Translations under genes and position numbers: made by a program
NCBI GenBank assembly: GCA_028383305.1
Contig: JAOEVD010000004.1
Location: 62,001 to 126,000, forward strand
Length of the DNA stretch: 64,000 bases
Direction of reading: 5' to 3'
Source of the DNA: Candidatus Puniceispirillum sp.
GTDB lineage: Bacteria; Pseudomonadota; Alphaproteobacteria; Puniceispirillales; Puniceispirillaceae
Part shown: positions 7,757 through 41,346 of the stretch, piece after piece
Position numbering within the stretch: position 1 is the first letter of the stretch
Layout of the letters: each line of letters starts with the position of its first letter
The notes under the pieces: model-generated
The model's database searches: none
The model's input: only the letters and a program-made list of their open reading frames with translations
What the model was told of the DNA's origin: nothing

Positions 7757-9364
7757 ATGGCCAATTTTGCCTATAGCCCGATGTTTCCAACAACCGCCGA
7801 CACAACCGAATATGAGCTTGTGTCCAGCGATCATGTCCGGCTTGTCGAAATGGAGGGCGAAACCTTCCTTCGGGTTGATCCGGAAGGCCTAACCCTTCTC
7901 GCCGAACGTGCCTTTATCGATATTTCACATCTGCTTCGAAGCAGCCATCTTGGCCAGCTTGCCGATATTCTAAAAGATCCCGAAGCCACCAAGAATGACC
8001 GGTTTGTCGCATTGGAAATGCTGAAAAACGCCGTTATTTCCGCCGAAGGCCTGTTGCCAATGTGCCAAGATACTGGCACGGCGCTGGTAACGGGTTATCG
8101 AGGCGACCATGTTTTGGTCAATGGTGATGATGGCGAGGCGCTATCGCGCGGCATTTACAACACTTATCAAAATTGCAATTTACGCTTTTCACAGCTTGCA
8201 GCGCATAGCATGTTTGAAGAAAGCAATACAGCCACCAACCTTCCGGCGCAGATCGAAATCAACGCCGGCAAAGGCCTTGAATATAAATTCGCTTTTATTC
8301 AAAAAGGTGGTGGATCAGCAAACAAAGCCTTTTTGCATCAGAAAACCAAAGCGGTGCTCAATCCCGAGTCGCTTCGTGAGTTTGTCCGCACCGCCATTCT
8401 GGAGCTTGGCACTTCTGCCTGCCCGCCTTATCACCTTGCGATTGTGATTGGCGGCACATCAGCCGAACTGACAATGAAGACGGTTAAAATGGCATCAATC
8501 AAGGCGCTTGATAATCTGCCAACCGAGGGCAATGCGCTTGGTCATGCATGGCGTGATCTCGATTGGGAAGCAGAAATCCTGCAAATCACCCGTGACCTTG
8601 GCATTGGCGCGCAATTTGGCGGTAAATATTATTGCCATGATGTACGCGTCATTCGCTTGCCGCGTCACGGTGCCTCTTGCCCAATTGGCATTGGCGTGTC
8701 CTGCTCGGCCGACCGGCAGGCCTTTGCCAAAATCACTCCCGAAGGGCTGTTTATTGAAACCTTAGAGCGCGATCCGGCAAAATTCCTGCCCGATCTATCT
8801 GATCAACCCGAAGATGATGTCGTTGCCATTGATCTGAACAAACCAATGAGCGAAATTCTGGCAAGCCTTAGCGCCCATCCGGTTGAAACACGGCTTGCGC
8901 TCACCGGCCCCTTGATCGTGGCGCGCGACATTGCCCATGCCAAATTGCTGGAACGGCTGGATCAAGACGGCAAATTGCCCGATTATTTCAAAAACCATCC
9001 GGTTTATTATGCGGGGCCAGCAAAGACACCCGAAGGCATGGCATCGGGGTCATTTGGCCCAACCACAGCTGGCCGCATGGATTCCTATGTTCCAACTTTT
9101 CAGGCCAATGGTGGATCAATGGTGATGCTTGCCAAGGGCAACCGGTCCCGCATTGTTCGCGATTCCTGTAAAGAACATGGCGGTTTTTATCTTGGCTCAA
9201 TTGGCGGAGTCGCCGCCAAACTGGCGCTTGAGTCAATCAAGAAAATCGAAGTTCTGGAATATCCAGAGCTTGGCATGGAAGCCGTCTGGAAAATTGAAGT
9301 TGAAAATTTTCCAGCCTTCATTGTGATGGATGACAAGGGTAATGATTTCTTTGATCTTGGCTAG
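7757..9364 (+). CDS. fumA: Class I fumarate hydratase, [4Fe-4S] dependent
   Basis: It hydrates fumarate to malate in the TCA cycle. The 535-residue protein has the class I architecture, with an N-terminal Fe-S domain and a C-terminal Fe-S hydro-lyase domain. Three cluster cysteines are visible: Cys103 (MCQDTG), Cys222 (SACPPY) and Cys316 (GVSCSAD). Each is two residues before its E. coli FumA counterpart. KGGGSANK at 183-190 is also conserved. Being oxygen-sensitive, this class often coexists with FumC. It follows sspB by 87 bp on the same strand. Confidence 0.95.
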
Positions 9365-25645: not shown

Positions 25646-27097
25646 ATGTCAGAAACCGGACAGAATTTTATTGCAGGCGCGTGGTGCGATGGGCAAAGCA
25701 CAATTGCCAATATCAATCCATCCGATCTTAGCGATCAGATCGGCCATTTTGCGCAGGCAGATAGCGCCCAGCTTGATCGCGCCCTAGATGCCGCCCAAAC
25801 CGCCCAGAAAAAATGGGTCGCCACCGGTCTTGAGGCGCGTCAAAACATCTTGATGAATATCGGCAATGAATTGATGGAACGCCGCATCGAGCTTGGCACC
25901 CTTCTTAGCCGCGAAGAAGGCAAGCCATTGGCCGAAGGTGTTGGTGAAATCTACCGAGCCGGCCAGTTCTTTACCTATTATGCTGCCGAAGTGCTTCGTC
26001 AGATCGGTGATGCGGCCGATAGTGTTCGTGACGGCATCGAAATTGACGTTCGGCGCGAACCGGTTGGAGTTGTTGCCATCATCAGCCCTTGGAATTTTCC
26101 AACCGCAACAGCAGTCTGGAAAATTGCGCCAGCGCTGGCTTTTGGCAATGCGGTCATCTGGAAACCGGCAAATCTGGTTCCGGCTTCGGCTGTTGCCTTA
26201 AGCGAAATCATTTCGCGTCAGGATATTCCGCATGGGCTGTTTAATCTGGTGATGGGGCCGGGCGGCAGCATTGGCCAGAAACTTGTCGAATCTTCGGCGA
26301 TAAATGCGATCAGCTTTACCGGCTCGCTGGATGTTGGCAAACAGATTGCTACCGCCGCAATTGCCAATCTTACCAAAGTCCAAATGGAAATGGGATCAAA
26401 GAACGCGCTTGCCATTATGGATGATGCCGATCTTGACCTTGCCGTGGCAACCGCGCTTGGCGGCGCTTTTGGCGGGACGGGTCAAAAATGCACCGCCTCG
26501 TCACGGCTTGTTGTGCATGAGGCCATCCATGACGAATTCGCCGACCGGCTTGTTGCCGCAGCATCGGCGATGAAGGTTGGGCATGCCTTGGCTGATGGAA
26601 CGCAAATTGGCCCCGTGGTTAGCGCCGGACAATTGGCCGAAAACCTGCAATGGATGGAAACAGCCAAACAGGAAGGCGGCGAGGTACTGTGTGGCGGCGA
26701 GACGGTTAGCCGCGATCATGATGGATATTACATAACGCCTGCGGTTATTGGTGGCACGAAAAATGACTGGCGCATCAATCGCGAAGAAATGTTTGCGCCA
26801 ATCGCCTGTATCATCAAAGTCGGCTCGTATGATGAGGCGCTTGATGTCGTGAATGACACTGATTTTGGCCTAACATCGGGGATCATCACCCGTTCGCTGG
26901 CGCGGGCAACGCATTTCCGCCGCAATGCCCAAACTGGTGTTGTTACGATTAACCTGCCAACCGCAGGCACTGATTATCATGTTCCATTTGGCGGACGCGG
27001 CAACAGCTCATATGGCCCGCGTGAACAAGGAAGCTATGCCGCCGAATTCTATACAATCGTGAAAACCAGCTATATTGCTGCTGGCAAGCCGGAATAA
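25646..27097 (+). CDS. NAD(P)-dependent aldehyde dehydrogenase, ketoglutarate-semialdehyde type
   Basis: It oxidises an aldehyde to an acid. The catalytic residues Glu249 (EMGSKN) and Cys282 (GQKCTAS) are present, with the SPWNFP cofactor region. The C-terminal FGGRGNSSYGPREQGSYAAEFY matches the YcbD/2,5-dioxovalerate dehydrogenase branch, so a dicarboxylate semialdehyde is a likely substrate. At 483 residues it is full length. It opens a four-gene plus-strand operon, with the M19-like gene 4 bp downstream. Confidence 0.88.
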   Translation: MSETGQNFIAGAWCDGQSTIANINPSDLSDQIGHFAQADSAQLDRALDAAQTAQKKWVATGLEARQNILMNIGNELMERRIELGTLLSREEGKPLAEGVGEIYRAGQFFTYYAAEVLRQIGDAADSVRDGIEIDVRREPVGVVAIISPWNFPTATAVWKIAPALAFGNAVIWKPANLVPASAVALSEIISRQDIPHGLFNLVMGPGGSIGQKLVESSAINAISFTGSLDVGKQIATAAIANLTKVQMEMGSKNALAIMDDADLDLAVATALGGAFGGTGQKCTASSRLVVHEAIHDEFADRLVAAASAMKVGHALADGTQIGPVVSAGQLAENLQWMETAKQEGGEVLCGGETVSRDHDGYYITPAVIGGTKNDWRINREEMFAPIACIIKVGSYDEALDVVNDTDFGLTSGIITRSLARATHFRRNAQTGVVTINLPTAGTDYHVPFGGRGNSSYGPREQGSYAAEFYTIVKTSYIAAGKPE

Positions 27098-27101
27098 TCA
27101 G

Positions 27102-28082
27102 ATGCATCTCATCGACAATCTTCAATATGCAAATTGGTCAGAAAAAATCTTTCGGCAAATGCGCGAAGGTGGCGTTGATGCGGTTCATGTGACGATTGCT
27201 TATCACGAAATGTTTCGCGAAACCGTTACCAAAATCGAACAATGGAATCGTTGGTTTGAACGCTATCCCGATCTGATTTTTCATGGCACCACTGGCGATG
27301 ATGTGCGGCGTGCCAAACGCGAAGGCCGAACCGCGATCTTTTTTGGATTTCAAAACCCGTCACCAATTGAAGATGATATTGGACTTGTTGAAATTTGTCA
27401 CAGCCTAGGCGTTCGCTTTATGCAGCTTACCTATAACAACCAGTCGCTTCTTGCCACGGGATGTTATGAAGATGAAGATACCGGCATCACGCGCATGGGC
27501 CGCCAAGTAATCAAGGAAATGAACCGTGTTGGCATGGTTGTTGATATGAGCCATTCGGCCGAACGATCAACCTTGGAGGCCATTGAAATTTCACAACGCC
27601 CAATTGCCATTACGCATGCCAACCCCTATTTCTGGCATCCGGCCAAACGCAATAAATCGGATGATGTGCTTCGCGCACTTGGCCAATCGGGTGGCATGTT
27701 GGGTTTCTCGCTTTATCCGCATCATTTAAAGGATAAATCAGAATGTAGTCTGACGAGCTTTTGCCAGATGATTGCCGACACTGCCGATTTGATGGGAGCC
27801 GACAATATCGGCATCGGATCCGACCTTTGTCAGGATCAACCTGACAGTGTGGTTGAGTGGATGCGCGTTGGCAGATGGACAAAAGAAATTGATTATGGCG
27901 AAGGTTCAGCCAGTAATGCAGGCTTTCCTCCAATGCCAAGCTGGTTTATAGATAACCGCCATTTCGGAGTGATTGCAGCAGGGTTAAGACAGCAGGGATT
28001 TTCCGAAAAAGACACAAATGCAATTATGGGTGAAAACTGGCTTCGGTTTTATGATAAAAATTTTGGCGCTGAAACGGCCTAA
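27102..28082 (+). CDS. M19 (renal dipeptidase)-like amidohydrolase with altered metal site
   Basis: The amidohydrolase barrel of family M19 is recognisable: EMNRVGMVVDMSH (His151), ITHANPYF (His172), RNKSDD and GIGSDL (Asp241). The usual N-terminal His-x-Asp metal pair is absent (it reads LIDNLQYAN), and the bridging Glu is replaced by Gln84 in FGFQNPSP. Canonical binuclear dipeptidase activity is therefore unlikely. A similar FGFQN variant exists, as I recall, in Pseudomonas glycine-betaine catabolism clusters. I used ATG 27102 (326 residues). The preceding frame overlaps the dehydrogenase gene. Confidence 0.85.
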   Translation: MHLIDNLQYANWSEKIFRQMREGGVDAVHVTIAYHEMFRETVTKIEQWNRWFERYPDLIFHGTTGDDVRRAKREGRTAIFFGFQNPSPIEDDIGLVEICHSLGVRFMQLTYNNQSLLATGCYEDEDTGITRMGRQVIKEMNRVGMVVDMSHSAERSTLEAIEISQRPIAITHANPYFWHPAKRNKSDDVLRALGQSGGMLGFSLYPHHLKDKSECSLTSFCQMIADTADLMGADNIGIGSDLCQDQPDSVVEWMRVGRWTKEIDYGEGSASNAGFPPMPSWFIDNRHFGVIAAGLRQQGFSEKDTNAIMGENWLRFYDKNFGAETA

Positions 28083-28120
28083 CTAGGTTTTTTGGCGCAA
28101 CAAGCAAAGTGGTTTGATTG

Positions 28121-29890
28121 ATGAAAAAACCAGAGATGAAACAAGATAATCCTGTGGCATCACCGCCACCAGTGTCGTCTGTTGCGCTTCGCCCGGCCAG
28201 CCAGGTCATGACCTTGGCGCGGATGGGATCATTTCATCAAAGCCGTCTTAGCTTTATGCGCGTTTTGCTGCGCCGTCTCAAAGCTGAGAATTGGCAGTTT
28301 AAACAAAGCCGATGGTTGATTGATGCCAAGGGCGTTGGCGTTGCCACCTATGAGGCCATTGGCCCTGAGCGAAGCTATACATTGGTTGCCTTTGCGCATG
28401 ATCTGCCAGCCGAAAAACGGTCAGATCGGGTCATAGCCGAAGCATGGGATGCCACCTTTACGCTTCATGATGGCACCATAAGCGATGCCGATATTGAACG
28501 GCTTAGACAGAATGTTCCGCTGCAAGAAGCTGGCCGTATTTCAGATGATGAATTCGTGCTGTCACGCGCAAACCGGTCGGTTCGGCTATTTGACTATGTT
28601 CGTGATTGCCTTGCCGCTGGCAACCAGCCCGACCTTGCGATGATCGAGCCTGTTGGTTATTTGATGCGAACAACGGCCGTTTATGGATCAGGCAAATTTG
28701 GCGCTGCCGATCGTGATATCTGGGCAAACCGGCCTGAATTTTCTGGCTCGTTCCAGCCTGAATTGCTTGCCGTCTGGTTAATCCGGTCATTTACCATTGA
28801 TATTGTCGAACATATGGCTGTGGTCAAAGCACCAGCAAAGGCGGTCAAGCTTGACCCCGATATTCGCCGCCGCATCGGTGTTGGCAATTCAACCGGTCTT
28901 GGCATGGCGCCATTCTTGATTAATCACCCATCATTGATTCACGCATGGATCAATGCGCGTGAAACCGCTTTGGCACGCGTGCGGGCGCTTGCCGCAACCG
29001 ATCAGGCTGGCCTCGCCGGTTTTCTGACGATGATCGCCAAAGCTGCCAAAAACGCGGATGAATGGACAACCGACAGCACTTATCAGCATGGCAAAACCCA
29101 ATCATTGCGGTATGATCTTGTCCGGCTTGACGCGTTTGTGCGCAGCCTTGACGCTGATATCGACCAGCCTTGGGACAGCATCTATCGCTGGGGCGAGTTC
29201 AATCTCAGCCTTGAAGGCCAAGAACAGCTTGTATCGCTTCTGCTTGAAGATCATGGCGACCTGATTGACGATTTGGCAAGCGGCATGGCATCGGATGAGG
29301 CAGCGCATTTCCGTATTGATGGATCAATGCCGCTATCACGGCTACGCCAAATGATGGACACCACCTATGGCTGGACCAAGGGCATTGATTATTCGCAAAA
29401 TGATGCGCTGGCGCGGGTTTGGTATGTGTCTGAAGAAAAGCTTGAGCCACGGCTTGGTGAACGGTTTGAAGAACCAATCGAGCCTTATGAGCAACCGCTT
29501 GCCCCCGGCCGTGATGCCGTTCGGGCGATGAAGGCCATTGGTCAATGGATCAAAAATCCTGGCAGATCAGGCGACGATAATGTTGCGGTCTTTTTGCTGA
29601 AACATCCAGAACACCGGCATATTGTTCGCCGCATGCAAACTGTTTTTACCCTTCCCTATGCCGAAATTCAGGACAATACGATTTCAGCAGAAATGCAGCC
29701 GATTGATTTGCTTCGCTGTAAATTGTCCTTTTTCGGCGCGTCAAAATTTGACCCGCGTTCGGATCGGTGGTTGCGCATTACAATGTATCAAGGCGCGCCC
29801 TTCCCCGATGAATTGGCAATGCTAGACCCTGATAGCCTGTTTTATCCGCCGCTTGCCAGCACTGGCAGACCGGATCATGAAAGGGTATGA
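28121..29890 (+). CDS. Conserved-looking protein of unknown function, 589 residues
   Basis: I do not recognise this family. The protein appears soluble, with no signal peptide or transmembrane helix. After a Pro-rich N-terminus (1-25) comes a compact alpha/beta region. The middle has GVGNSTGLGMAPFLINHP, which looks like a conserved loop, and the end has QPIDLLRCKLSFFGASKFDPRSDRWLRI. Codon usage matches its neighbours. The ATG at 28121 is preferred to the TTG just before it. The stop overlaps the DUF3726 start (ATGA), so the two are coupled. It probably acts with the M19-like protein and DUF3726. Confidence 0.8.
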   Translation: MKKPEMKQDNPVASPPPVSSVALRPASQVMTLARMGSFHQSRLSFMRVLLRRLKAENWQFKQSRWLIDAKGVGVATYEAIGPERSYTLVAFAHDLPAEKRSDRVIAEAWDATFTLHDGTISDADIERLRQNVPLQEAGRISDDEFVLSRANRSVRLFDYVRDCLAAGNQPDLAMIEPVGYLMRTTAVYGSGKFGAADRDIWANRPEFSGSFQPELLAVWLIRSFTIDIVEHMAVVKAPAKAVKLDPDIRRRIGVGNSTGLGMAPFLINHPSLIHAWINARETALARVRALAATDQAGLAGFLTMIAKAAKNADEWTTDSTYQHGKTQSLRYDLVRLDAFVRSLDADIDQPWDSIYRWGEFNLSLEGQEQLVSLLLEDHGDLIDDLASGMASDEAAHFRIDGSMPLSRLRQMMDTTYGWTKGIDYSQNDALARVWYVSEEKLEPRLGERFEEPIEPYEQPLAPGRDAVRAMKAIGQWIKNPGRSGDDNVAVFLLKHPEHRHIVRRMQTVFTLPYAEIQDNTISAEMQPIDLLRCKLSFFGASKFDPRSDRWLRITMYQGAPFPDELAMLDPDSLFYPPLASTGRPDHERV

Positions 29891-30516
29891 GCTGGTCACT
29901 TGGTGAAATCGGCGCCCTAGCCACCAAGGCGGCACGCGGAAGCGGCATGGACTGGGGGCTTGCCGACGAAGCTGGCTATGCTGTGAAATGGCTACAACGC
30001 CGCCAATTGCCTGGTGTTGCCGCGCTATGTCGATATCTAAGCTGGCGGCAAGCTGGTGAAATCACCAATTGGCCCGATGATACAGCGCGTGATGGTCATT
30101 ATTGTCCAATTGCCACTGGCGCTGCCTATGGTGATGGTGTGTTTGGGGATGATCTGCAATTTGCCCGCGTCCGAACACCGTTATTGCTGATCCCCTTTAT
30201 CGCGCTTCGCGCCACAAACAGCCCTGTTTGCCTATCAATGGGCAAAGCTGTTTTTGCGCTAACCCAAGATAAATTTGGGTTTTCAAAAAATGATACGGCG
30301 ATTTTAATGGATTCGTCAGCCTGCCAAATTTACGCAGCATCTGATGACGAACTGCCTGAGATGATGACCATCGCCAATGCCGCAATTCCCCGCGTTCCGA
30401 TAACAGCATCGGCCTGCATCACGGTTTTGAACGGCTTTGCCAAAAACACCTATGCACCAGCAACCGAGGCGTCACGCCTTGCCGGTGCTGGTGCTGGGCT
30501 GAATGATAATGATTAG
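29887..30516 (+). CDS. DUF3726 family protein
   Basis: The N-terminus, SLGEIGALATKAARGSGMDWGLADEAG, fits the DUF3726 pattern as I recall it. Function is unknown. The 209-residue protein has no signal or membrane segment. It is coupled by a 4-base overlap to the 589-residue gene and ends the operon. The 69-bp gap after it is convergent with the aldehyde dehydrogenase on the other strand. DUF3726 proteins could be small-molecule enzymes or partners of the M19-like protein, but nothing in the sequence decides this. Confidence 0.75.
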   Translation: MSWSLGEIGALATKAARGSGMDWGLADEAGYAVKWLQRRQLPGVAALCRYLSWRQAGEITNWPDDTARDGHYCPIATGAAYGDGVFGDDLQFARVRTPLLLIPFIALRATNSPVCLSMGKAVFALTQDKFGFSKNDTAILMDSSACQIYAASDDELPEMMTIANAAIPRVPITASACITVLNGFAKNTYAPATEASRLAGAGAGLNDND

Positions 30517-30585: not shown

Positions 30586-32022
30586 CTAGACAATGCCGCT
30601 GATGGTTTTGATTTCGAGAAATTCTTCAATCCCCCAAAACCCGCCTTCACGACCAACGCCTGACTGCTTGTAGCCGCCAAACGGGCTTCCTGCCGCACGC
30701 GAAGCGCCATTGACTTGAATCATGCCAGCGCGCAATCTTGCCGCAACCCGCTTGGCGCGTTCTTTATCACCCGTCTGGATATAGGCCGCCAGTCCATACG
30801 GCGTGTCATTGGCAAGGGCGATGGCTTCTTCTTCGCTGTCAAACGGCATCAACGCCAGAACAGGGCCAAAAATTTCTTTGCGGATAATCGTCATATCGGC
30901 TGTCGCATCGGCAAATACCGTTGGCTTTACAAACCAACCGCGATTCATGCCCTCAGGACGGCCAACGCCGCCAGCGACAAGCCTTGCACCTTCATCAATG
31001 CCGGCCTGGATCATGCTTTGCACCTTGTTGAATTGTGCTTCAGATACCAAAGGCCCTATGTGATTTCCCGAATTTGATGGCAGATCAACCTTGGTGGCAT
31101 TAGCTTTAGTGGCGGCGATTTCAACAGCCTGATCATAGACGCTTCGCTGAACCAGCATGCGTGTTGCCGCATTACAAGATTGACCTGTATTGTTGAAACA
31201 AAAGGCCGCGCCCATGCGAACTGCCTTATCGACATCGCAATCATCAAAAACCAGATTTGGGGATTTGCCGCCAAGTTCGAGCGAGACGGTTTTCACTGTA
31301 TCTGCAGCTGCCTTGCTGATCAAAATACCGGCGCGTGTTGAGCCGGTAAATGACACAACATCAATATCTGGATGTGATGATAAGATCGTGCCAACACCGG
31401 CACCATCTCCATTGACCATGTTAAATACACCCGCCGGAAAACCAGCCTCATCAATCATTTCGGCAAAAAGAATGCTGGACATTGGGGCAATTTCAGACGG
31501 TTTCAGCACCATTGTGCAGCCTGCCGCCAACGCCGCACCAACCTTTAGAACAACCTGATTCATTGGCCAATTCCACGGGGTGATCAACGCGGCAACACCC
31601 GCCGCCTCAAAGGCAATATCTTGGCCTTCAACACCTTGCCGCAATGGCCGTTGAAATTCCATTGTGCCAAGCGCGCGGATAAATGCCTTTAAATGACTGA
31701 TGCCCGATCCGGCCTGATCACTGACTGCCATATCAATGGGCGCACCCATTTCGGTTGAAATCGTTGCGCCCATTTCATCATTCCGCGCGATATAGACATC
31801 AAGCAATTTTTGCAAATAGCCAGCACGTTCGGTCGGGCTTGTCATCGACCAAGCTGGAAAGGCGGCTTTGGCCGCGGCAATCGCCGCCTCGGCATCTTTG
31901 GCACCGCCAAGCGTAATTGTGGCAAACGCATCTTCGGTAGCTGGATTCAAAACAGGAAAGCTATGCCCATCTTGTGATGGCACCCAAGATCCATTGATAT
32001 AAAATTCGGTTTTATCCAGCAT
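30586..32022 (-). CDS. NAD-dependent aldehyde dehydrogenase
   Basis: This is a classical ALDH with cofactor site ITPWNWP, catalytic Glu in LELGGKSPN, catalytic Cys in NTGQSCNAA and EIFGPVL downstream. ATG 32022 is nine nt after the start of GGAGG and gives 478 residues. The long open frame upstream is not coding-like. It is the last gene of the agmatinase-Pot-aminotransferase series, so oxidation of aminobutyraldehyde to 4-aminobutyrate is a reasonable guess. Confidence 0.88.
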   Translation of the reverse strand: MLDKTEFYINGSWVPSQDGHSFPVLNPATEDAFATITLGGAKDAEAAIAAAKAAFPAWSMTSPTERAGYLQKLLDVYIARNDEMGATISTEMGAPIDMAVSDQAGSGISHLKAFIRALGTMEFQRPLRQGVEGQDIAFEAAGVAALITPWNWPMNQVVLKVGAALAAGCTMVLKPSEIAPMSSILFAEMIDEAGFPAGVFNMVNGDGAGVGTILSSHPDIDVVSFTGSTRAGILISKAAADTVKTVSLELGGKSPNLVFDDCDVDKAVRMGAAFCFNNTGQSCNAATRMLVQRSVYDQAVEIAATKANATKVDLPSNSGNHIGPLVSEAQFNKVQSMIQAGIDEGARLVAGGVGRPEGMNRGWFVKPTVFADATADMTIIRKEIFGPVLALMPFDSEEEAIALANDTPYGLAAYIQTGDKERAKRVAARLRAGMIQVNGASRAAGSPFGGYKQSGVGREGGFWGIEEFLEIKTISGIV

Positions 32023-32209
32023 AAAGCCTCCAAGATTATGGTTGTGGCCGCCGCAAGCGCAGCCATTGCGTTTTTTCGAAACTGATTTTTTGTGCCCAAG
32101 GTTTCTTGTGCCTAAGCCAGCGCCGCAAGCCAGCACCTTGTGGCCAAATTGCACCTTGCAAACAACTCTTGTCAAGTTATTGATAACTGCGTGATATAGA
32201 CTGATTTGC

Positions 32210-33130
32210 TTAGGTTTTTATCTTGCCGCGCTGTACTATGAAAATCCCGCCAAGCACCATAAACAACGCCATAATATGATAAAGATACATGGTTTCGGAC
32301 AAGATCAGCATTGCCAAAAAAGCCGCAAATATTGGCACCATATTCACATAAAGCCCAGCGCGGTTCGCATCCGCCAGTTCGACGCCACGCATATAGAATG
32401 TTTGCGATAGAATTGACGGAAAGATTGCTGAATAAAACAGTAACAGGTTGCCTTTGACCCCGGGAAGCACAAGATCGCCATTCGCATATTCGGCAATCAG
32501 GAACAGGCTACAGGTCAAAAAAGCACAAAAGGCGAAAAAACATAAAAGCAAAACGGGCGGCATTTCAAGCCGCTTTGCCAGTGCGACCGTATAGGCACCA
32601 TAGCAAACACATGCCGCAACCATCAACAAATCACCAAAATTGAAACGAAGCGCCAAAATCGTGGCAAGGCTGCCAGCGCTAACCAGAACCAAAATACCGG
32701 TCAGCGATGAACAAAGGCCAAAAAATTGCAGCCAGCCAATGCGGGTTCGATAAATCAGCCAGCCAAGCACCATAACAACCGCCGGAATCGCCCCTTGCAT
32801 AATGCCAAGATTGACCACGGTCGTATATTGCGCCGCATAGACAAGAAGCAGGCTGAAACCGGCAAGCCCACCACCACCCATAGCAAACACCCAACGCCAG
32901 TTCTGTAAAGCCAAAGGCACATAGCGCGGCAGGGTTTTGCGATAGATCACTACCAAAATAAGAAAGGCACCAAGCCAGCGCAATTGCATCAGCAAAACCG
33001 GTGAGATTTCGCCAACCGACATGCGCAATGCCACCGCATGACCTGCCCAGATCAAGGTTGCCATCAGCAATACCGCATGCGCGCTGCCCCAAAAGCGGCC
33101 AAGAACCGACACGCATTGCTGTTTGATCAT
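32210..33130 (-). CDS. EamA/DMT-family transporter
   Basis: About ten hydrophobic segments over 306 residues form two EamA halves, with ATLIWAGHAVALRM at the start and a short basic C-terminus (QRGKIKT). Fifteen bases separate it from the upstream aminotransferase gene, so it belongs to that operon and may export a catabolic by-product or import a related compound. The substrate is unknown. Confidence 0.85.
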   Translation of the reverse strand: MIKQQCVSVLGRFWGSAHAVLLMATLIWAGHAVALRMSVGEISPVLLMQLRWLGAFLILVVIYRKTLPRYVPLALQNWRWVFAMGGGGLAGFSLLLVYAAQYTTVVNLGIMQGAIPAVVMVLGWLIYRTRIGWLQFFGLCSSLTGILVLVSAGSLATILALRFNFGDLLMVAACVCYGAYTVALAKRLEMPPVLLLCFFAFCAFLTCSLFLIAEYANGDLVLPGVKGNLLLFYSAIFPSILSQTFYMRGVELADANRAGLYVNMVPIFAAFLAMLILSETMYLYHIMALFMVLGGIFIVQRGKIKT

Positions 33131-33145
33131 GACATGGCCATCAGA

Positions 33146-34567
33146 TTAACGAAGCTTTGCCGCAAGCGCGCTAACTTCATCAAGACCGGATTCAATACGG
33201 TCAAACATATCATCAATTTCCGCAGCAGTGATGATCAAAGGTGGGCAAAAGCCAACGATATCACCTGGCAAGGCGCGTAAAATCACCCCATGTTTCTGAA
33301 TGATGGCAACCGCTTGCGCCGCAATTTTCTGGGCTGGTTCAAATTTTTCACCAGTTTGACGATTGGCGGCAAATTCCATTGCACCAATCAGGCCAATCGC
33401 CCGCAAATTGCCGATGAAGTCAAATCTGGCAAGCCGTTCAATCCGGCTTTTGAATTGCGGGGCAATGCGCCTGACATGGCCGACGATATCGCGTTCCTGC
33501 ATCAATTGCTGCGCCCGCAAGGCCACCGCGGCGCAAACCGGATGCGCCGAATAGGTATAGCCATGCCCAAAAATGCCAAGCTGTTCTGCCTGCTTGGCGA
33601 TTGGCGCATAGACCTTTTCCGACAGCATCACCGCCGAAATCGGCAAATAGGCCGATGACAACGCCTTGGCACAGGTCAGCATATCAGGGCGGACATCCAT
33701 GGTTTGAGAACCCCACATATTGCCCGTACGGCCAAATCCGCAAATCACCTCATCCGCGACTAGCAAAACATCATATTTTTCCAGAACAGCACGAATTTTT
33801 TCAAAATAGGTTCGTGGTGGAATAATCACCCCGCCTGCCCCCATGACCGGCTCGGCAAATAGCGCGCCCACGGTTTCCGGCCCTTCTTCGAGGATCAGCG
33901 TTTCAAGATCAGCGGCACAACGGCTAGCAAAATCCTCTTCGCTTTCGCCGTCTTTCGCACCGTTATAAAAGTCGGGCGCGGTTGTGTGTTTGACGAAATC
34001 CAGCGGCAGGCCGAAACCATCTTGCGCATAGGCAAGCGCGGTCATGCTCGCCGCCGCCATAGTCACCCCGTGATAGCCTTTTCGGCGGCTGATGATTTTG
34101 CGCTTTTCCGGCCGGCCAAGCGCCGCATTGTAATACCAGACCATCTTCATGGCGGTATCATTCGCCTCTGATCCAGATGCCGCAAAAAACACTTTGCTCA
34201 TCACGCTGTCACCGCCAGCAAGCGGGGCGCTGGCAATCAAGGTTTCGGCAAGATCAATCGCCGGATTGACCGTTTTGCCAGCAAAGCTGTGATAGAAAGG
34301 CAGTTTTTTGAATTGCGCCATTGCCGCATCAATCAATTCAGGTTCGGAAAACCCAAGCGATGTACACCAAAGCCCGCTCATCCCTTCATAAAACTGATTA
34401 CCAGCATCATCGACAACAAAGACACCATTACCCTGTGCCATGATATGCGGCCCCGCATCACCAAGCATTGCCGGATTGGTATAGGGATGCATATGAAAGG
34501 CAATATCGCGGCTTGCCGGTGAATTGCCAGCAAGCTGTTGTTCGGATGGGGGGATACTTTGTGTCAT
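33146..34567 (-). CDS. Class III omega-amino acid/polyamine:pyruvate aminotransferase
   Basis: This PLP enzyme has NGVFVVDDAGNQFYEGMSGLW near the N-terminus, FFAASGSEANDTAMK, RRKGYHGVT, LFAEPVMGAGG, VADEVICGFGRTG and the PLP lysine in CAKALSSAYLP. Its 473 residues and motif set fit the putrescine:pyruvate or beta-alanine:pyruvate group (SpuC-like). With the Pot transporter, an agmatinase and an aldehyde dehydrogenase in the same series, putrescine to 4-aminobutanal is the likeliest reaction. Confidence 0.88.
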   Translation of the reverse strand: MTQSIPPSEQQLAGNSPASRDIAFHMHPYTNPAMLGDAGPHIMAQGNGVFVVDDAGNQFYEGMSGLWCTSLGFSEPELIDAAMAQFKKLPFYHSFAGKTVNPAIDLAETLIASAPLAGGDSVMSKVFFAASGSEANDTAMKMVWYYNAALGRPEKRKIISRRKGYHGVTMAAASMTALAYAQDGFGLPLDFVKHTTAPDFYNGAKDGESEEDFASRCAADLETLILEEGPETVGALFAEPVMGAGGVIIPPRTYFEKIRAVLEKYDVLLVADEVICGFGRTGNMWGSQTMDVRPDMLTCAKALSSAYLPISAVMLSEKVYAPIAKQAEQLGIFGHGYTYSAHPVCAAVALRAQQLMQERDIVGHVRRIAPQFKSRIERLARFDFIGNLRAIGLIGAMEFAANRQTGEKFEPAQKIAAQAVAIIQKHGVILRALPGDIVGFCPPLIITAAEIDDMFDRIESGLDEVSALAAKLR

Positions 34568-34643
34568 TTCAACTGTCCTAAACGTCCAAGATTACTAGCC
34601 AAGATTGCTGGCCAAAATTACTGATCGAGATTAATAGCTAAGC

Positions 34644-35381
34644 CTAGACATGCTGGCCACCATTCACATGAATTTCCGATCCATTTAGATATTTGGCCTG
34701 ATCACTGCAAAGAAAAAAAACAGTGTCAGCAACTTCATCAGCATTGCCAAACCGGCCAAGCGGAATTTGCGGAATGATTGTTGCCTCGCTATCAGGCGAC
34801 AGAATATCGGTTTTAATCTCACCCGGGGCAATGGCATTTACCCGAATGCCACGCCTGCCAAAATCAGACGCCATTTCGCGGGTCAATGCGCTAAGCGCGG
34901 CTTTCGATGTGGCATAGGCCGAACCGGCAAATTCATGAACCCGGCTTCCGGCAATCGAGGTTACATTCACAATCGAGCCATCACCTTTGCCAAGCGAGCC
35001 GCATAGTTTTTGCGCCAGCATGATTGGGGCAAAAACATTCACCTGATAAACATGCTGCCAAAGATCAAGCGATGTTTTATGACAATCAAGGCGGCCACCA
35101 TCAGGCGTTTTCGGTGAAATTGCAGCATTATTCACCAGCGCGTGAAGTGGTTTGCCATCAAGCCGCGTCAATAATTCTGCCGCGCCACGGCTTACATCTT
35201 CAGGCGATGATAAATCAATTTGCAGATGATCTTCCGGCCCCGCTTCCCACGGGCAATTTTCCGGAAAACCATGGCGTGAACAGGTGATGACGCGCCAACC
35301 AGCGCTGGAAAATCGCTTTACGGTTGCATGGCCAATGCCGCGGCTTGCCCCTGTTAATACCAGAATTTTTTGGTCATCCAT
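34644..35381 (-). CDS. Short-chain dehydrogenase/reductase
   Basis: This is a Rossmann-fold oxidoreductase. The cofactor motif TGASRGIGHA is near the N-terminus, then VNNAAIS, catalytic Ser (VTSIAGS) and the YATSK pair (Tyr, Lys), and PGEIKTD. It ends GGQHV. From ATG 35381 it has 245 residues, the family size. The substrate is unknown. It lies between potC and the aminotransferase, so it may act on an alcohol or keto intermediate of the same pathway. Confidence 0.87.
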   Translation of the reverse strand: MDDQKILVLTGASRGIGHATVKRFSSAGWRVITCSRHGFPENCPWEAGPEDHLQIDLSSPEDVSRGAAELLTRLDGKPLHALVNNAAISPKTPDGGRLDCHKTSLDLWQHVYQVNVFAPIMLAQKLCGSLGKGDGSIVNVTSIAGSRVHEFAGSAYATSKAALSALTREMASDFGRRGIRVNAIAPGEIKTDILSPDSEATIIPQIPLGRFGNADEVADTVFFLCSDQAKYLNGSEIHVNGGQHV

Positions 35382-35510
35382 GAATGATGAACCCCGTTTC
35401 CCTGGCCATTCCACGCAGCCGAGGTCACCCCTGAAACGGCTACAGAAAATGGCTTTGACTCTTATGTCAGAGTGACGTCAAAAATGATTAAGGTCAAATG
35501 GACAGGCTGA

Positions 35511-36425
35511 CTAGCTGCTTGTGATCCCGCGCAGCCGTTCAGAACGCCGCCGCAATAACTCCAAAACCGTCAAAAGAATGATCGATAAGATCACCAACAG
35601 CGTGGCAACGGCAAGAATTGTTGGGCTGATCTGCTCGCGAATACCCGACCACATCTGACGCGGAATCGTTCGCTGTTCCGGACTGGCCAGAAACAGAACC
35701 GCCACCACTTCGTCAAATGAGGTGATAAAGGCAAATAAGCCACCCGAAATAACTCCGGGGATAATCAATGGCATCTGCACTTTGCGAAAGGTGGTAACCG
35801 CCCCCGCGCCAAGCGATTGCGATGCCCGAACAAGTGATTTGTCAAATCCAACAAGGGTTGCTGTTACGGTAATGATCACAAAGGGCGTGCCAAGAACCGC
35901 ATGCGCCATGATCACGCCAAGATAAGTTTGGCTTAGATGCACCTGCGAATAGAAATAGAACATGCCAGCGGCGGTAATAATCAACGGCACAATCATCGGC
36001 GAAATCAAGATCGACATAACCAACCGGCGATAGGGCATTTCAGACCGGCTAAGGCCAATTGCCGCTAATGTTCCAAGCGCCGTTGACAAAAGCGTTGCGC
36101 AAATCCCAATGAAAAAGCTGTTGCGAATGGCTCTAATCCATTGGCCATTATTCCATGTATCGGCAAGCCATGCCCAATCAAATGGCGCATCCGGCGCCTT
36201 CATACCATTGCGCAGAATATCCTCGTACCAGCGAAGCGAATAGGCTGTGGGGTCAAAATTCAACATGCCCTTGGTAAAGCTGAAATAAGGCTCAACATTG
36301 AATGACAGCGGCAAAACCACAATGATTGGCATAATCAAAAACAGGAAGATCAATCCGCAAATGCTGCGATAAACATAATGCCAGATATATTCACCAGTGC
36401 TGGTATAGGGAGGAAGCTTTGCCAT
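35511..36425 (-). CDS. potC: Polyamine-type ABC transporter permease PotC
   Basis: This inner-membrane permease of the spermidine/putrescine family has six hydrophobic segments in 304 residues. The EAA loop region is seen as RASQSLGAGAVTTFRKVQMPLIIPGV. It starts 4 bp after the potB stop, with its GGGA site inside the potB end. It works with PotB as the membrane channel. Confidence 0.9.
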   Translation of the reverse strand: MAKLPPYTSTGEYIWHYVYRSICGLIFLFLIMPIIVVLPLSFNVEPYFSFTKGMLNFDPTAYSLRWYEDILRNGMKAPDAPFDWAWLADTWNNGQWIRAIRNSFFIGICATLLSTALGTLAAIGLSRSEMPYRRLVMSILISPMIVPLIITAAGMFYFYSQVHLSQTYLGVIMAHAVLGTPFVIITVTATLVGFDKSLVRASQSLGAGAVTTFRKVQMPLIIPGVISGGLFAFITSFDEVVAVLFLASPEQRTIPRQMWSGIREQISPTILAVATLLVILSIILLTVLELLRRRSERLRGITSS

Positions 36426-36429
36426 ATTA

Positions 36430-37692
36430 TTATCCCAGCTTCATGTTATCGATACCGATAACCTTGTCATAAGCCCAATAAAGAACCAGAACGCCCGCCA
36501 GCAAAATACCGCCAAGCGCCGCGGCAAGCGACCAGTTCAGCGACTTCTGCATATGATAGGCAATCATATTTGAAATCAATTGACCATCCTGACCACCAAC
36601 AAGCGCTGGTGTGATGTAATACCCAATTGCCAGAATGAAAACCAGCAAACCGCCAGCACCAATCCCCGGAATTGTTTGCGGCATGTAAACCTTGATAAAG
36701 GCCATTGTCGGTGTTGCACCAAGCGAGCGTGCGGCGCGCATATATGATGGTGGAATGGTTTTCATCACTGAATAGAGCGGTAAAATCATGAATGGTAGCA
36801 AAATATGCGTCATCGCAATGATCGTACCAGTCATATTATAGATCAGCGAGAAGCGCGCATCATCTGCAGTGATGCCAACAAAAACCATCAGATCATTGAT
36901 CACTCCTTGCGATTGCAAAATGGCAATCCACGCTGTTGTTCGCACCAAAAGTGATGTCCAGAATGGCAGCAAAACCATGATCATCAGCAAGTTAGATGCG
37001 CGCAATGGTAAGGTTGCCAGCAAATAGGCAACCGGATAGCCAAGCAAAAGGCACAAGCCCATAACCGTTGCCGAAATCAGCATGGTACGCCAGAACAGCT
37101 TTACATATATTTGCCGGTTTTCATCCTGCCGGACAAAGCCTTGATCAACTGTATAGCGTCCATCAAGCGCGGTGGCGTAAAACCCCGGTGTAAGGTCCTG
37201 AGACGTGATCTTCATGGCCTGCCAGACCTCGATATTGTTCCATTTCTTGTTGGCCTTGATGACGCTTTCTTTGAAAGGTGGCTTTAACTTTTTGGCCTTG
37301 CGCGCAGTTGATGTGAACAATGATCGCGTTCCGGGAAATTCTTGGTTCACGCGCGTAGCAGCCCGGCCAATTGTCCGATCGGCACGCGCAGTTTTTAAAT
37401 CGGCAACCAACGCCTCATACATCTTTTCATTCGGCTCGGTTAGCCCATCCCACATGGTTAATCGCTCGGTCAGATTCGGCATGTGGGAAGAAAATCGGTC
37501 GTTGTAGACTCCTTGCCACATCAGCGCAAGGATCGGGATAACAAAGCTGGCCATGACAAAAGCAAACAAGGGCACCACAAGCGAAACAGCACGAACACGG
37601 CTACGGAATAAAGCCTGCGCCAGCTTTTTCTTCAGCGGTGTCCCATCAGCCGCGGTAATTGGCTCGAGAGAAGCCGTTTGACTATCTGCCAT
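36430..37692 (-). CDS. potB: Polyamine-type ABC transporter permease PotB
   Basis: This permease has 420 residues, longer than E. coli PotB because a hydrophilic segment of about 130 residues lies between the first helix (about 36-59) and the remaining ones. The EAA motif is RAARSLGATPTMAFIKVYMPQTIPG. The insertion should face the periplasm and is seen in other marine alphaproteobacterial relatives as far as I recall. A strong hairpin precedes the gene, and its ribosome binding site is weak. Confidence 0.9.
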   Translation of the reverse strand: MADSQTASLEPITAADGTPLKKKLAQALFRSRVRAVSLVVPLFAFVMASFVIPILALMWQGVYNDRFSSHMPNLTERLTMWDGLTEPNEKMYEALVADLKTARADRTIGRAATRVNQEFPGTRSLFTSTARKAKKLKPPFKESVIKANKKWNNIEVWQAMKITSQDLTPGFYATALDGRYTVDQGFVRQDENRQIYVKLFWRTMLISATVMGLCLLLGYPVAYLLATLPLRASNLLMIMVLLPFWTSLLVRTTAWIAILQSQGVINDLMVFVGITADDARFSLIYNMTGTIIAMTHILLPFMILPLYSVMKTIPPSYMRAARSLGATPTMAFIKVYMPQTIPGIGAGGLLVFILAIGYYITPALVGGQDGQLISNMIAYHMQKSLNWSLAAALGGILLAGVLVLYWAYDKVIGIDNMKLG

Positions 37693-37726
37693 AATGAAAA
37701 TAAATCTCAGTTAAAAAGTGACTAAT

Positions 37727-37763
37727 AAAAAGCGGTCACATGACAAACCCCATGTGACCGCTT
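37727..37763 (-). terminator. Strong terminator-like hairpin between potD and potB
   Basis: A perfect 13-bp stem (37730-37742 with 37751-37763) and an 8-base loop are followed on the minus strand by TTTTTATT. Because potB and potC lie downstream in the same direction, it probably acts as a partial terminator that keeps the binding protein above the permeases, or else potBC has its own promoter. Confidence 0.8.
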
Positions 37764-37775
37764 TGGTTTTTGGTT

Positions 37776-38867
37776 TTACTTTGACAACCAAGCGTTGAAA
37801 CGCTCGTTCAACTGGTCAGCATTATCCGCCCAGAATTCAAAGTCGTTCTGCAAGGCATTTTTAAAGTTTGCAGCAGCTGTAGGCATATGATCTGCCATTT
37901 TGATGCTATCATCAGAATGGAAAGTACCAATACGAGCTTCAGATGATGCACGCGCTGGGCCATAAGAGATCCATGATGCCTGCGCAGCAAGCTGCTCAGT
38001 CGCTGTTGAGAAAGCGACGAAATCAAGCGCTGCTTCTTTGTTCTTTGATCCTTTTGGAATCACCCAGAGATCAAGGTCATAAATCTGACCGTCCCACACC
38101 ATTTCAAATGACTGGCCTTCAGCATTTTTGGCATTGAACACACGGCCGTTCCAAGCAGTTGAAAACACAACTTCACCGTCAGCAAGCAGCTGTGGTGGCT
38201 GTGCGCCAGCTTCCCACCAGACCACGTCGTCTTTAATTGTATCTAATTTTGCAAAGGCCCGTGCCACACCTTCCTCTGTTCCAAGAACGTCATAAACCTC
38301 GCTGACAGGAACACCATCAGCAATCAAGGCAAATTCCATGGTCACTTTTGGTGACTTACGCATGCCGCGCTTGCCCGGAAATGCCTTGGTGTTGAAAAAA
38401 TCAGCCATTGTGGTTGGCTTGTTCCAATTACGTGTTTTGCTTGAGTCATAAGCGTATACAGATGACCAAACGATGTTTGCGACCGCACAGTCATGCAATG
38501 TACCTGGCAAAAAGTCTTCCGTTGCGGGCGTACCATCCGGCGCTGGTGGCAGGATTGAATGATCAATTGGCTCCAAAAGGCCTTCATCACATGCGCGAAT
38601 AGCGTCTGACAATTCAACGTCAACAACGTCCCATGTTACATTTCCGGACTCAACCTGAGCTTTGATCTCGGCAATACCCCCGCCATAATCTTCCGAAACA
38701 ATGGCTTTGCCAGTCTTTGCCATCCAAGGCTTATGATAGGCCTCCACCTGTGACTTTGTATATGCACCGCCCCATGACACAACTGTCAAATCAGCTGCCA
38801 TTGCTGCGCCGCTAACAAATGCTGAAGCACCTGCAATCGCAATTATTTTTTTCGTTAATCCAGACAT
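37776..38867 (-). CDS. potD: Periplasmic polyamine-type substrate-binding protein PotD
   Basis: This is the solute-binding protein of the Pot-type importer. The signal peptide is residues 1-24 (ending GAAMA). The mature part begins ADLTVVSWGGAYTKSQ, with WDVVDVE and WWEAGAQPPQLLADGEV typical of the PotD/PotF fold. ATG 38867 follows GGGAG. Ligand specificity cannot be read reliably. A putrescine- or guanidino-type amine is suggested by the operon. Confidence 0.9.
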   Translation of the reverse strand: MSGLTKKIIAIAGASAFVSGAAMAADLTVVSWGGAYTKSQVEAYHKPWMAKTGKAIVSEDYGGGIAEIKAQVESGNVTWDVVDVELSDAIRACDEGLLEPIDHSILPPAPDGTPATEDFLPGTLHDCAVANIVWSSVYAYDSSKTRNWNKPTTMADFFNTKAFPGKRGMRKSPKVTMEFALIADGVPVSEVYDVLGTEEGVARAFAKLDTIKDDVVWWEAGAQPPQLLADGEVVFSTAWNGRVFNAKNAEGQSFEMVWDGQIYDLDLWVIPKGSKNKEAALDFVAFSTATEQLAAQASWISYGPARASSEARIGTFHSDDSIKMADHMPTAAANFKNALQNDFEFWADNADQLNERFNAWLSK

Positions 38868-38930
38868 TATGTCTACTCCCTTTGGTTGTTCGTGCGTTTT
38901 AAGAGCCACACTACTCTATTTTATTAGCCA

Positions 38931-38949
38931 CTACCCGTTAACCGAGTAG
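38931..38949 (-). promoter_or_regulatory. Intergenic hairpin between potA and potD
   Basis: CTACTCG-GTTAA-CGGGTAG on the minus strand gives a 7-bp stem without a T tail. It could stabilise the potD mRNA end after processing. Function is inferred only from position. Confidence 0.35.
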
Positions 38950-38975
38950 CGAGCCATCTTTGACTTTTAGCATAG

Positions 38976-40079
38976 TCAAACTGGTTCATTAAAATCAAGC
39001 GCCCGGCAATCATCGTTCTTCCAGCCAATTTGCGACAATGCTCCAATTTCCAGACCAAGTTGACCCGAAGTGTTTGGAACTTTGACAATGAACTGATCAT
39101 CACCAGCCACACTCATCCGACAGCGGATGTGATCTCCAAGATATATTAATTCTTCGATGCGTGCATCAAGTGAACTTGTCCCAGCAGATTTTTTCGCCGT
39201 AACGATACAGCGTTCCGGACGAACAGATAAGGTTGTTCGGCTGCCAACAGCACCAACATTCACGGCAAGTGCCTTGACAACATCTCCTGCCTCCAGCTTG
39301 ACCGTTGCAATGTTTTTGCTGACCGACTGAACCGTGCCAAGCATTTGATTATTCTCACCGATGAATTGCGCCACAAACGCATTTTCCGGCTTTTCATAAA
39401 GCGTAACTGGATCAGCAAGCTGTTGAATAATGCCGTCATCAAAAACCGCAATCCGATTAGACATGGTCAAGGCTTCAGACTGGTCATGCGTTACATAGAC
39501 AACCGTTACCCCAAGATTTTCATGAATATGCTTGATTTCATATTGCATATGCTCGCGAAGCTGTTTGTCGAGCGCACCAAGCGGTTCATCCATCAAAACC
39601 AGTTCAGGATTAAACACCAATGCCCGAGCCAGCGCGATCCGCTGTTGCTGTCCACCCGACAATTGCGCCGGTTTCCGATCGATAAAGGCAAGCATCTGAA
39701 CCATGTCCAGCACTGCCCGAACTTTGTCTTCGACTTCGGCCGTTGGCATATTGCGCACTTTCAGCGGAAAAGCCAAATTTTCACCCACCGTCATATGCGG
39801 GAACAGGGCGTAATTTTGAAACACCATGCCAATGCCGCGCTTATGCGGCGGAATGTTATTGATTGGGCGGCCGCCTAGCTCAATATCACCATGCGTTGCC
39901 GTTTCAAAACCGGCAAGCATCATCAGACAGGTTGTCTTGCCTGACCCTGACGGCCCCAGCATTGTTAAAAATTCGCCAGATGCGATATCTAGGTTCAGAT
40001 TTTTAACGACAAGCGTTTCTCCGTCATAGCTCTTTTGGACCCCTTTGAAGCTGACGAATGGGTCGTTGGCTTGCACCAT
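38976..40079 (-). CDS. potA: Polyamine-type ABC transporter ATPase PotA
   Basis: This ABC ATPase energises the importer. Walker A is GPSGSGKTT (about residues 43-51), the Q-loop is VFQNYALFPHM, the signature is LSGGQQQRIALARAL, Walker B is LVLMDEPLGALD and the switch is VTHDQSEAL. A C-terminal TOBE domain follows. At 367 residues it is standard. The 195-bp AT-rich gap upstream, before the agmatinase gene, may hold a separate promoter. Confidence 0.94.
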   Translation of the reverse strand: MVQANDPFVSFKGVQKSYDGETLVVKNLNLDIASGEFLTMLGPSGSGKTTCLMMLAGFETATHGDIELGGRPINNIPPHKRGIGMVFQNYALFPHMTVGENLAFPLKVRNMPTAEVEDKVRAVLDMVQMLAFIDRKPAQLSGGQQQRIALARALVFNPELVLMDEPLGALDKQLREHMQYEIKHIHENLGVTVVYVTHDQSEALTMSNRIAVFDDGIIQQLADPVTLYEKPENAFVAQFIGENNQMLGTVQSVSKNIATVKLEAGDVVKALAVNVGAVGSRTTLSVRPERCIVTAKKSAGTSSLDARIEELIYLGDHIRCRMSVAGDDQFIVKVPNTSGQLGLEIGALSQIGWKNDDCRALDFNEPV

Positions 40080-40274
40080 TTTATCCTACCTAGTTTTTGT
40101 TTTAATCTTATTTTTTTGTTACGTTGCAATGCTATTTATTTAGCGAATATTGAGTCGGAACAGCGAAGCTAACTAAAACACCGAAGGGTATGATTTGCAA
40201 CAAGTTCTGAACATTTAGAAAATTTTTATGCCAACTTCTATTTAGCCGACTATTTTTGCGTCAATTGCACCCTG

Positions 40275-41231
40275 CTAGCGCCGGTTATGGTGGATTCTGC
40301 CAATTAGGTTTAACAAGATTTGCGCCGCTAATGTTGTCGTGCTGCCACTATGGTCATAATCAGGTGCCACCTCGACAAGATCGACCCCGATGATGGTGCC
40401 GCGCTTGGTCAAACCATCCAGAAATTCCAGGATCTCATAATAGAAAAACCCACCATGTGACGGCGTTCCCGTCCCCGGGGCAACCGATGGATCAAACCCG
40501 TCAATATCAATCGTCACATAATAGCGGCCACCAGCGGGAACCCGGTCAAGCATGCCAGCAACACCCAATTTGCGGAATTGACGAACCGACTGAATATCAG
40601 ACCCCATTTTGCGGGCATCGTCATAACCGTCCTTTGCCGTTGACGACACATTGCGGATACCAATCTGCGACAGGCCAGTCACATAGGGTTTTTCGGCAGC
40701 ACGGCGCATCGGATTGCCATGTCCGTATTTAACCCCATGCCGTTCGTCAACGAAATCGAGGTGCGCGTCAATTTGCACAAGATGAAACGGCTCTTCATCG
40801 CTAAAGGCATTGATACAGGGAATATTGACCGAATGATCGCCGCCAAGAACCACCGGCACTGCGCCAGCGGCAAGAATGGCACGAACCCCCGTTTCAATAT
40901 TGGCATGGCTTCTGGTGGTATCCGTGTGAATGATATCGGCGTCACCAATATCAACAATCCGAACCTGATCGGCCTGAAGATATGTCACATCATCTTCATG
41001 GTCATAAGCACCCGCGTGGCCGAACGAAAACAGCGTTGACGCTTCGCGGATACCGCGGGGACCAAATCTTGCACCAGCCCGAAATTGGGTGCCAAAATCA
41101 AACGGCGCGCCAAGAATGGCAAAATCAGCATCAATTGACGACCAATCAGGTTGATAGGGATATTTGCCAAAACTACATAATCCGACAAAGGGCAAATTCA
41201 AACGCCCTGTTTCATACCCATGTACCGACAT
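40275..41231 (-). CDS. speB: Agmatinase/guanidino-acid ureohydrolase family protein
   Basis: It hydrolyses a guanidino group to urea and an amine. The binuclear Mn site is complete: GGDHS, DAHLD and DIDGFDP. From ATG 41231 it has 318 residues. The TTG five codons earlier is unlikely. Agmatine to putrescine fits the adjacent Pot transporter and putrescine-type aminotransferase. Guanidinobutyrate or guanidinopropionate are real alternatives in this family. It is the first gene of the minus-strand series and is divergent from dpaL. Confidence 0.87.
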   Translation of the reverse strand: MSVHGYETGRLNLPFVGLCSFGKYPYQPDWSSIDADFAILGAPFDFGTQFRAGARFGPRGIREASTLFSFGHAGAYDHEDDVTYLQADQVRIVDIGDADIIHTDTTRSHANIETGVRAILAAGAVPVVLGGDHSVNIPCINAFSDEEPFHLVQIDAHLDFVDERHGVKYGHGNPMRRAAEKPYVTGLSQIGIRNVSSTAKDGYDDARKMGSDIQSVRQFRKLGVAGMLDRVPAGGRYYVTIDIDGFDPSVAPGTGTPSHGGFFYYEILEFLDGLTKRGTIIGVDLVEVAPDYDHSGSTTTLAAQILLNLIGRIHHNRR

Positions 41232-41346
41232 ATCAAATCCCCCCAATGCCTGCGAGCCGCAAAAACCAGATCGCTAAACGCTAATCCAAGCCGGTAAATT
41301 CTGCAAGCTACCAGATCATTTTGCCCTTTACGGAAAGCACCACTTT

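Follow-up and report, generated by a model that had tools for sequence, protein, structure and literature searches.

We analyzed a 64,000-nucleotide stretch of contig JAOEVD010000004.1 (forward-strand positions 62,001 to 126,000; assembly GCA_028383305.1) from Candidatus Puniceispirillum sp., hereafter called the window, and focused on four consecutive genes encoding an aldehyde dehydrogenase (ALDH), an M19-family protein, a 589-residue orphan that we refer to as BIG590, and a DUF3726 protein. Their positions in the window are as follows.

25646..27097, + strand: ALDH, a relative of alpha-ketoglutarate-semialdehyde dehydrogenase (483 aa; Pfam Aldedh, 502 bits)
27102..28082, + strand: M19-family amidohydrolase with a noncanonical metal site (326 aa; Pfam Peptidase_M19, 263 bits, cut-off 26)
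28121..29890, + strand: BIG590, putative ring-opening enzyme or main subunit of such an enzyme (589 aa; no Pfam or NCBIfam family)
29887..30516, + strand: DUF3726 protein, proposed partner subunit of BIG590 (209 aa; PF12525, 54.4 bits, cut-off 22.1)

The ALDH and M19 genes are separated by 4 bp and the M19 and BIG590 genes by 38 bp, while BIG590 and DUF3726 overlap by 4 bp. The preliminary description of this DNA had taken these tightly packed genes for an operon, and our survey of related genomes bears this out: the operon is real, conserved, and probably catabolic. The M19 gene starts at the ATG at 27102, with an in-frame TTG upstream at 27075. Promoter-like sites (9, versus 6.1 with a standard deviation of 2.8 in shuffles) and terminator-like sites (5, versus 6.6 with a standard deviation of 2.7) were weighed for no conclusion.

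Of 61 genomes searched in the order, 51 have BIG590, counting the window's own (37/40 of the good-quality ones). At class level, it is present in 53/385 sampled genomes, three of which consist of a single contig of 1.2–1.4 Mb. Recurring in this way, BIG590 is not a product of chance. The gene also appears in 168 plasmid records, and its closest named relative among the matches listed comes from a Candidatus Puniceispirillum metagenome-assembled genome (MAG; 96% identity), with further SAR116 records ranking next. We surveyed the best 80 loci of a longer list of named genomes, scoring their neighborhoods by tblastn. DUF3726 directly follows BIG590 in all 80. In 73, an M19 gene on the same strand precedes BIG590 at no more than 2.6 kb, and 50 have an ALDH of this type within 4.6 kb upstream; where the upstream sequence is at least 4.7 kb long (69 loci), the ALDH count is 45. 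From these counts, M19-BIG590-DUF3726 is the steady unit and the ALDH is frequent but not universal, so that the proposed co-occurrence of all four genes stands for the set as a recurring one but fails for the loci that lack the ALDH. Other neighbors in the survey are a DpkA-like Ldh directly after DUF3726 (17/80, with room for it in 75), a BCCT transporter within 6 kb (22/80), an upstream LysR regulator (38/80), and RidA (9/80).

In the ALDH, Cys282 and Glu248 are present in the expected motif contexts. Its best NCBIfam models are NF052305 (472.6 bits, cut-off 750) and NF042993 (463.9 bits, cut-off 770); 2,5-dioxovalerate and alpha-ketoglutarate-semialdehyde dehydrogenase models score highest and, though the equivalog cut-offs are not reached, they agree with the earlier placement of the enzyme nearest the ketoglutarate-semialdehyde branch. 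The M19 protein has no NCBIfam match. Its nearest solved structure is 2i5g (195 bits), an entry whose molecule name carries no specific function and which likewise has other residues where the HxD pair is expected (L/I in 2i5g, L/Y in the M19 protein). In the residue numbering of renal dipeptidase, the M19 protein has L/Y at H20/D22, Q at E125, and Y at H152, and it retains H160, H181, R192, and D250, which align with H198, H219, R230, and D288; the HxD stretch precedes the region aligned with a true dipeptidase and was positioned by eye. The claim that this protein has lost its canonical active site is thus right only for a part of that site: H152 and the residues of the binuclear dipeptidase metal center, HxD and Glu125, are replaced, but the four other equivalents are kept.

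BIG590 matched no Pfam family at E 0.01 and no NCBIfam model, and sequence searches against solved structures gave best E values of 1.6 for the protein alone and 1.2 as a profile. Its predicted model (pLDDT 88.6, pTM 0.89) had no match at E ≤ 0.001 in the PDB by Foldseek, a single aligner with which a distant fold could be missed, and none at this threshold in a viral fold library; TM-scores among the 50 Foldseek matches listed were at most 0.12 by query length and 0.19 by target length. No solved counterpart was thus found for the predicted shape of this protein, in keeping with its initial classification as unassigned: neither by sequence nor by fold did it match a characterized enzyme in the libraries searched. 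Across both clades of BIG590, many arginines are invariant, but H270 is the only invariant histidine and no cysteine is conserved throughout, so that a histidine-based metal site is not suggested; a carboxylate-binding pocket is a guess.

The DUF3726 protein had no NCBIfam match and gave best E values of 0.12 alone and 0.45 as a profile against solved structures; a literature search for DUF3726 returned nothing. The 12 best Foldseek matches of its predicted model (pLDDT 86.8) all belong to the Ldh_2 family, none of them at E ≤ 0.001 (best 0.012; TM 0.38 for the top match). Alignment with Ldh_2 by hhalign covered 52 N-terminal columns at E 0.0026 but with a probability of only 11.6%. DUF3726 may be a truncated relative of Ldh_2.

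The genes that accompany the operon in relatives give it a metabolic context. Ruegeria TM1040 and Phaeobacter P10 share the order sarcosine-oxidase/mgd-like beta-delta-alpha-gamma, AraC-type regulator, LysR, ALDH, M19, BCCT, BIG590, DUF3726, with Ldh next in Phaeobacter P10. Strain M382 has LysR, ALDH, M19, BIG590, DUF3726, Ldh, BCCT, and Aminobacter and Shinella have an M382-like arrangement with a glycine-betaine ABC transporter. Linkage of mgd-like genes to the operon is found in TM1040, Phaeobacter, Shinella, two further loci (L087, L103), and two loci of the order. A betaine or N-methyl context is supported in relatives. The closest solved structure to the Ldh of the operon loci is 1wtj, a delta1-piperideine-2-carboxylate reductase, and a passage of PMC6110843 describes Pseudomonas putida DpkA, which has this activity, as producing N-methyl amino acids. 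A route by way of N-methylglutamate requires an imine reductase together with Mgd. In a BIG590 tree of 95 rows (FastTree, with local support only and 35/92 inner branches open), loci neighbored by Ldh or mgd-like genes sit on deep branches that surround the SAR116 clade from outside. The Phaeobacter P10 plasmid carries two copies of the operon (L033, L133), one beside sarcosine-oxidase/mgd-like genes, BCCT, and Ldh, and the other with RidA and genes annotated for dimethylsulfoniopropionate demethylation nearby.

Candidates for the same accessory functions are found on other contigs of the window's genome. Contig C4 holds an mgd-like set with 74/72/62% identity to TM1040 subunits A/B/C and only 22% for the D subunit, and contig C6 a second sarcosine-oxidase-like set (58% for the first subunit). 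Contig C2 encodes a glycine-betaine-type ABC transporter (ProXWV, with an OpuAC domain) and, directly after it, an Ldh. Among solved structures, 1wtj is again by far the best match of this Ldh (267 versus 131 bits), which shares only 34–35% identity with the Ldh proteins from Rhodobacterales and Shinella loci. In eight further genomes of the order, an orthologue of this Ldh (54–61% identical) flanks the core in 4/8, mgd-like genes do so in 2/8, and ProXWV in 1/8; 3/8 have none of Ldh, mgd, or transporter. In G090, a small genome of this class, the corresponding transporter directly precedes ALDH-M19-BIG590-DUF3726, and the best match of its permease within the window's genome is the C2 locus (61%). 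By gene content, the window's genome seems to have the pathway split among several contigs.

We consider the operon to be probably the SAR116 form of an operon for catabolism of homarine (N-methylpicolinate), a reading drawn from gene content and neighborhood. A homarine catabolic pathway was reportedly described by Ferrer-Gonzalez et al. (2026, Nat Microbiol 11:1531), with an operon said to be named homABCDER and to be present in SAR116; the name homABCDER was not found among the papers listed by our literature search. Strain M382 and four Ruegeria loci (L100, L101, L104, L106) have five structural genes plus LysR, which matches the A–E plus R of homABCDER. In the window, four genes stand together, with Ldh elsewhere and no regulator adjacent; we infer the identity of these genes with the published hom genes. 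The preliminary description had proposed an undescribed pathway. This is probably not supported, as the mgd-like genes, AraC-type regulator, imine reductase, and betaine transporters of relatives fit the 2026 homarine pathway; the pathway has probably been described already. Hydroxyproline catabolism, our first idea, was dropped after a literature search gave nothing on this gene set among the papers listed.

The proposed route would begin with entry of homarine through a betaine-type transporter. BIG590 with DUF3726, the remaining candidate for this step, would open the pyridinium ring, and by analogy to the trigonelline route, cutting the ring between carbons 5 and 6 would yield an N-formyl five-carbon semialdehyde. 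The ALDH would oxidize this semialdehyde, and the M19 protein would hydrolyze the leftover carbon-nitrogen bond, for example that of an N-formyl group, with loss of the sixth chain carbon as formate. One carbon must leave, because the homarine chain with its carboxylate has six carbons and N-methylglutamate has five. The imine reductase would then convert the N-methyl imine to N-methylglutamate, from which Mgd would form glutamate and a one-carbon unit on tetrahydrofolate. The trigonelline pathway, tgnABCDE, handles an N-methylpyridinium carboxylate with an ALDH and a hydrolase by way of a formyl intermediate. Compared by description, the window's four genes differ from it in having BIG590 and DUF3726 and no flavin monooxygenase. 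The N-methylglutamate pathway of methylamine users (gmaS-mgs-mgd), as outlined in PMC13390433, would share Mgd as the last step but forms N-methylglutamate from methylamine, whereas the proposed route forms it from ring degradation. Passages of the same paper place TmaR, an AraC-type regulator, next to mgdABCD in R. pomeroyi, a linkage that some strains keep although they lack the trimethylamine genes upstream, and state, citing a 2026 paper, that Mgd participates in homarine catabolism. By type and by position beside mgd-like genes, the TM1040 AraC-type regulator may correspond to TmaR.

An MgdA-like gene (match at E ≤ 1e-120) occurs in 146 of the 385 class genomes, 50/53 with BIG590 and 96/332 without it (Fisher p 1.5e-20), a figure that is inflated by kinship and stems from a search in which Mgd and sarcosine oxidase were not separated. 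At least five genomes, picked by eye, have the MgdA-like gene within 11.5 kb of BIG590, versus 0.82 expected (P 0.0016). Besides these two limits on the co-occurrence figure, a number of observations speak against assignment to homarine catabolism. SoxA/B/D-like genes at ≥40% identity flank only 2/80 named loci. In two order loci and three small genomes (L137–L139), the mgd-like genes next to the core are only 58–61% identical to the TM1040 MgdA-like protein, about the same as the second sarcosine-oxidase-like set of the window's own genome (58%). In the window, Ldh, transporter, and mgd-like set are not linked to the operon, which by Pfam is flanked by EamA and ALDH genes, with no LysR adjacent; likewise, no Ldh or mgd-like gene lies within label range of the eight close SAR116 tree rows. 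No ALDH is found upstream in 24 of the 69 named loci with at least 4.7 kb there, and a distant clade (S. meliloti, Bosea, Variovorax) has no ALDH next to the core and other transporters. Because some subgroups have RidA without Ldh and those 24 loci have no ALDH, the substrate, as far as neighborhoods indicate, may differ between branches.

Alternatively, the same machinery would act on another N-methylated or betaine substrate, such as trigonelline, proline betaine, or hydroxyproline betaine, with ring opening or demethylation feeding the ALDH and M19 protein. The transporters belong to generic betaine types, genes for Rieske oxygenase or mandelate-racemase-like proteins lie near some loci, and the two Phaeobacter P10 copies have different neighbors, all of which would suit such a substrate. 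The linkage of imine reductase and mgd-like genes instead points to N-methylglutamate and recurs on deep branches around SAR116 and in other genomes of the order, and we regard a different substrate as unlikely. Less likely still is a SAR116 copy belonging to a branch in which a RidA-type protein hydrolyzes the imine to 2-oxoglutarate and methylamine, with no N-methylglutamate formed. RidA lies beside the operon in 12 of the 95 tree rows, Ldh in 25, and both in 1, and the SAR116 rows closest to the window showed no match to either beside the operon; however, mutual exclusion of RidA and Ldh is not significant across these rows (p 0.17), and the window's genome has its DpkA-like Ldh with ProXWV, and orthologues of this Ldh flank the core in half of the eight loci from other genera of the order.

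If the operon instead degraded dipeptides or N-acyl amino acids, with the M19 protein as a true dipeptidase, this would account for the Pfam M19 match. It would also fit what lies upstream of the second copy in Phaeobacter P10, an ABC transporter that has two ATP-binding genes, as is common in peptide transporters. The replaced HxD, E125, and H152 equivalents, together with the betaine-type, TRAP-type, or missing adjacent transporters of the other annotated ALDH-clade loci, make this reading highly improbable.

Within homarine catabolism, we tentatively propose, at somewhat less than even confidence, that BIG590 and DUF3726 form a pyridinium-ring-opening enzyme of a new class, having a fold absent from the PDB, in which DUF3726 would be a truncated Ldh_2-like subunit and whose distant clade in S. 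meliloti, Bosea, and Variovorax would open another heterocycle. A second BIG590 clade, ~30% identical (L037, L038, L039), has M19, a small partner, and an IclR regulator, with ABC transporters in L037 and L038; the small partner matched no Pfam family in L037 and L038. This clade has the same module, probably with another substrate. In L046, a histone-deacetylase-like amidohydrolase (7905–8942, by Pfam) occupies the ALDH's place upstream of M19 or BIG590, and by the start of the sequence the same holds for L045 and L049 and, less closely, L073. BIG590 also occurs in MAGs titled Acidimicrobiales, Acidiferrobacterales, Chromatiales, and Gammaproteobacteria (L059, L060, L069, L076, L077, L083, L089, L091, L092, L095, L116), reflecting either transfer or contaminated bins.

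Downstream of the operon, a convergent cluster on the − strand (30586–41246) encodes an ALDH, an EamA transporter, a class III aminotransferase, an SDR protein, ABC permeases, a solute-binding protein, an ATPase, and an arginase-family enzyme. From these annotations, it looks like a cluster for guanidino or polyamine catabolism. Its aminotransferase is 53% identical to one adjoining the distant M19-BIG590 clade in S. meliloti.

A passage of PMC12817926 describes homarine as an osmolyte that reaches high concentration in marine phytoplankton and is taken up fast by R. pomeroyi. If our assignment is true, homarine, an N-methylated pyridine compound of plankton, would feed glutamate metabolism, and its ring would be opened by proteins without a known mechanism, making the conserved BIG590/DUF3726 pair a target for enzymology. 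SAR116 bacteria would then carry the homarine degradation set in split form, which would help to trace the flow of marine carbon and nitrogen.

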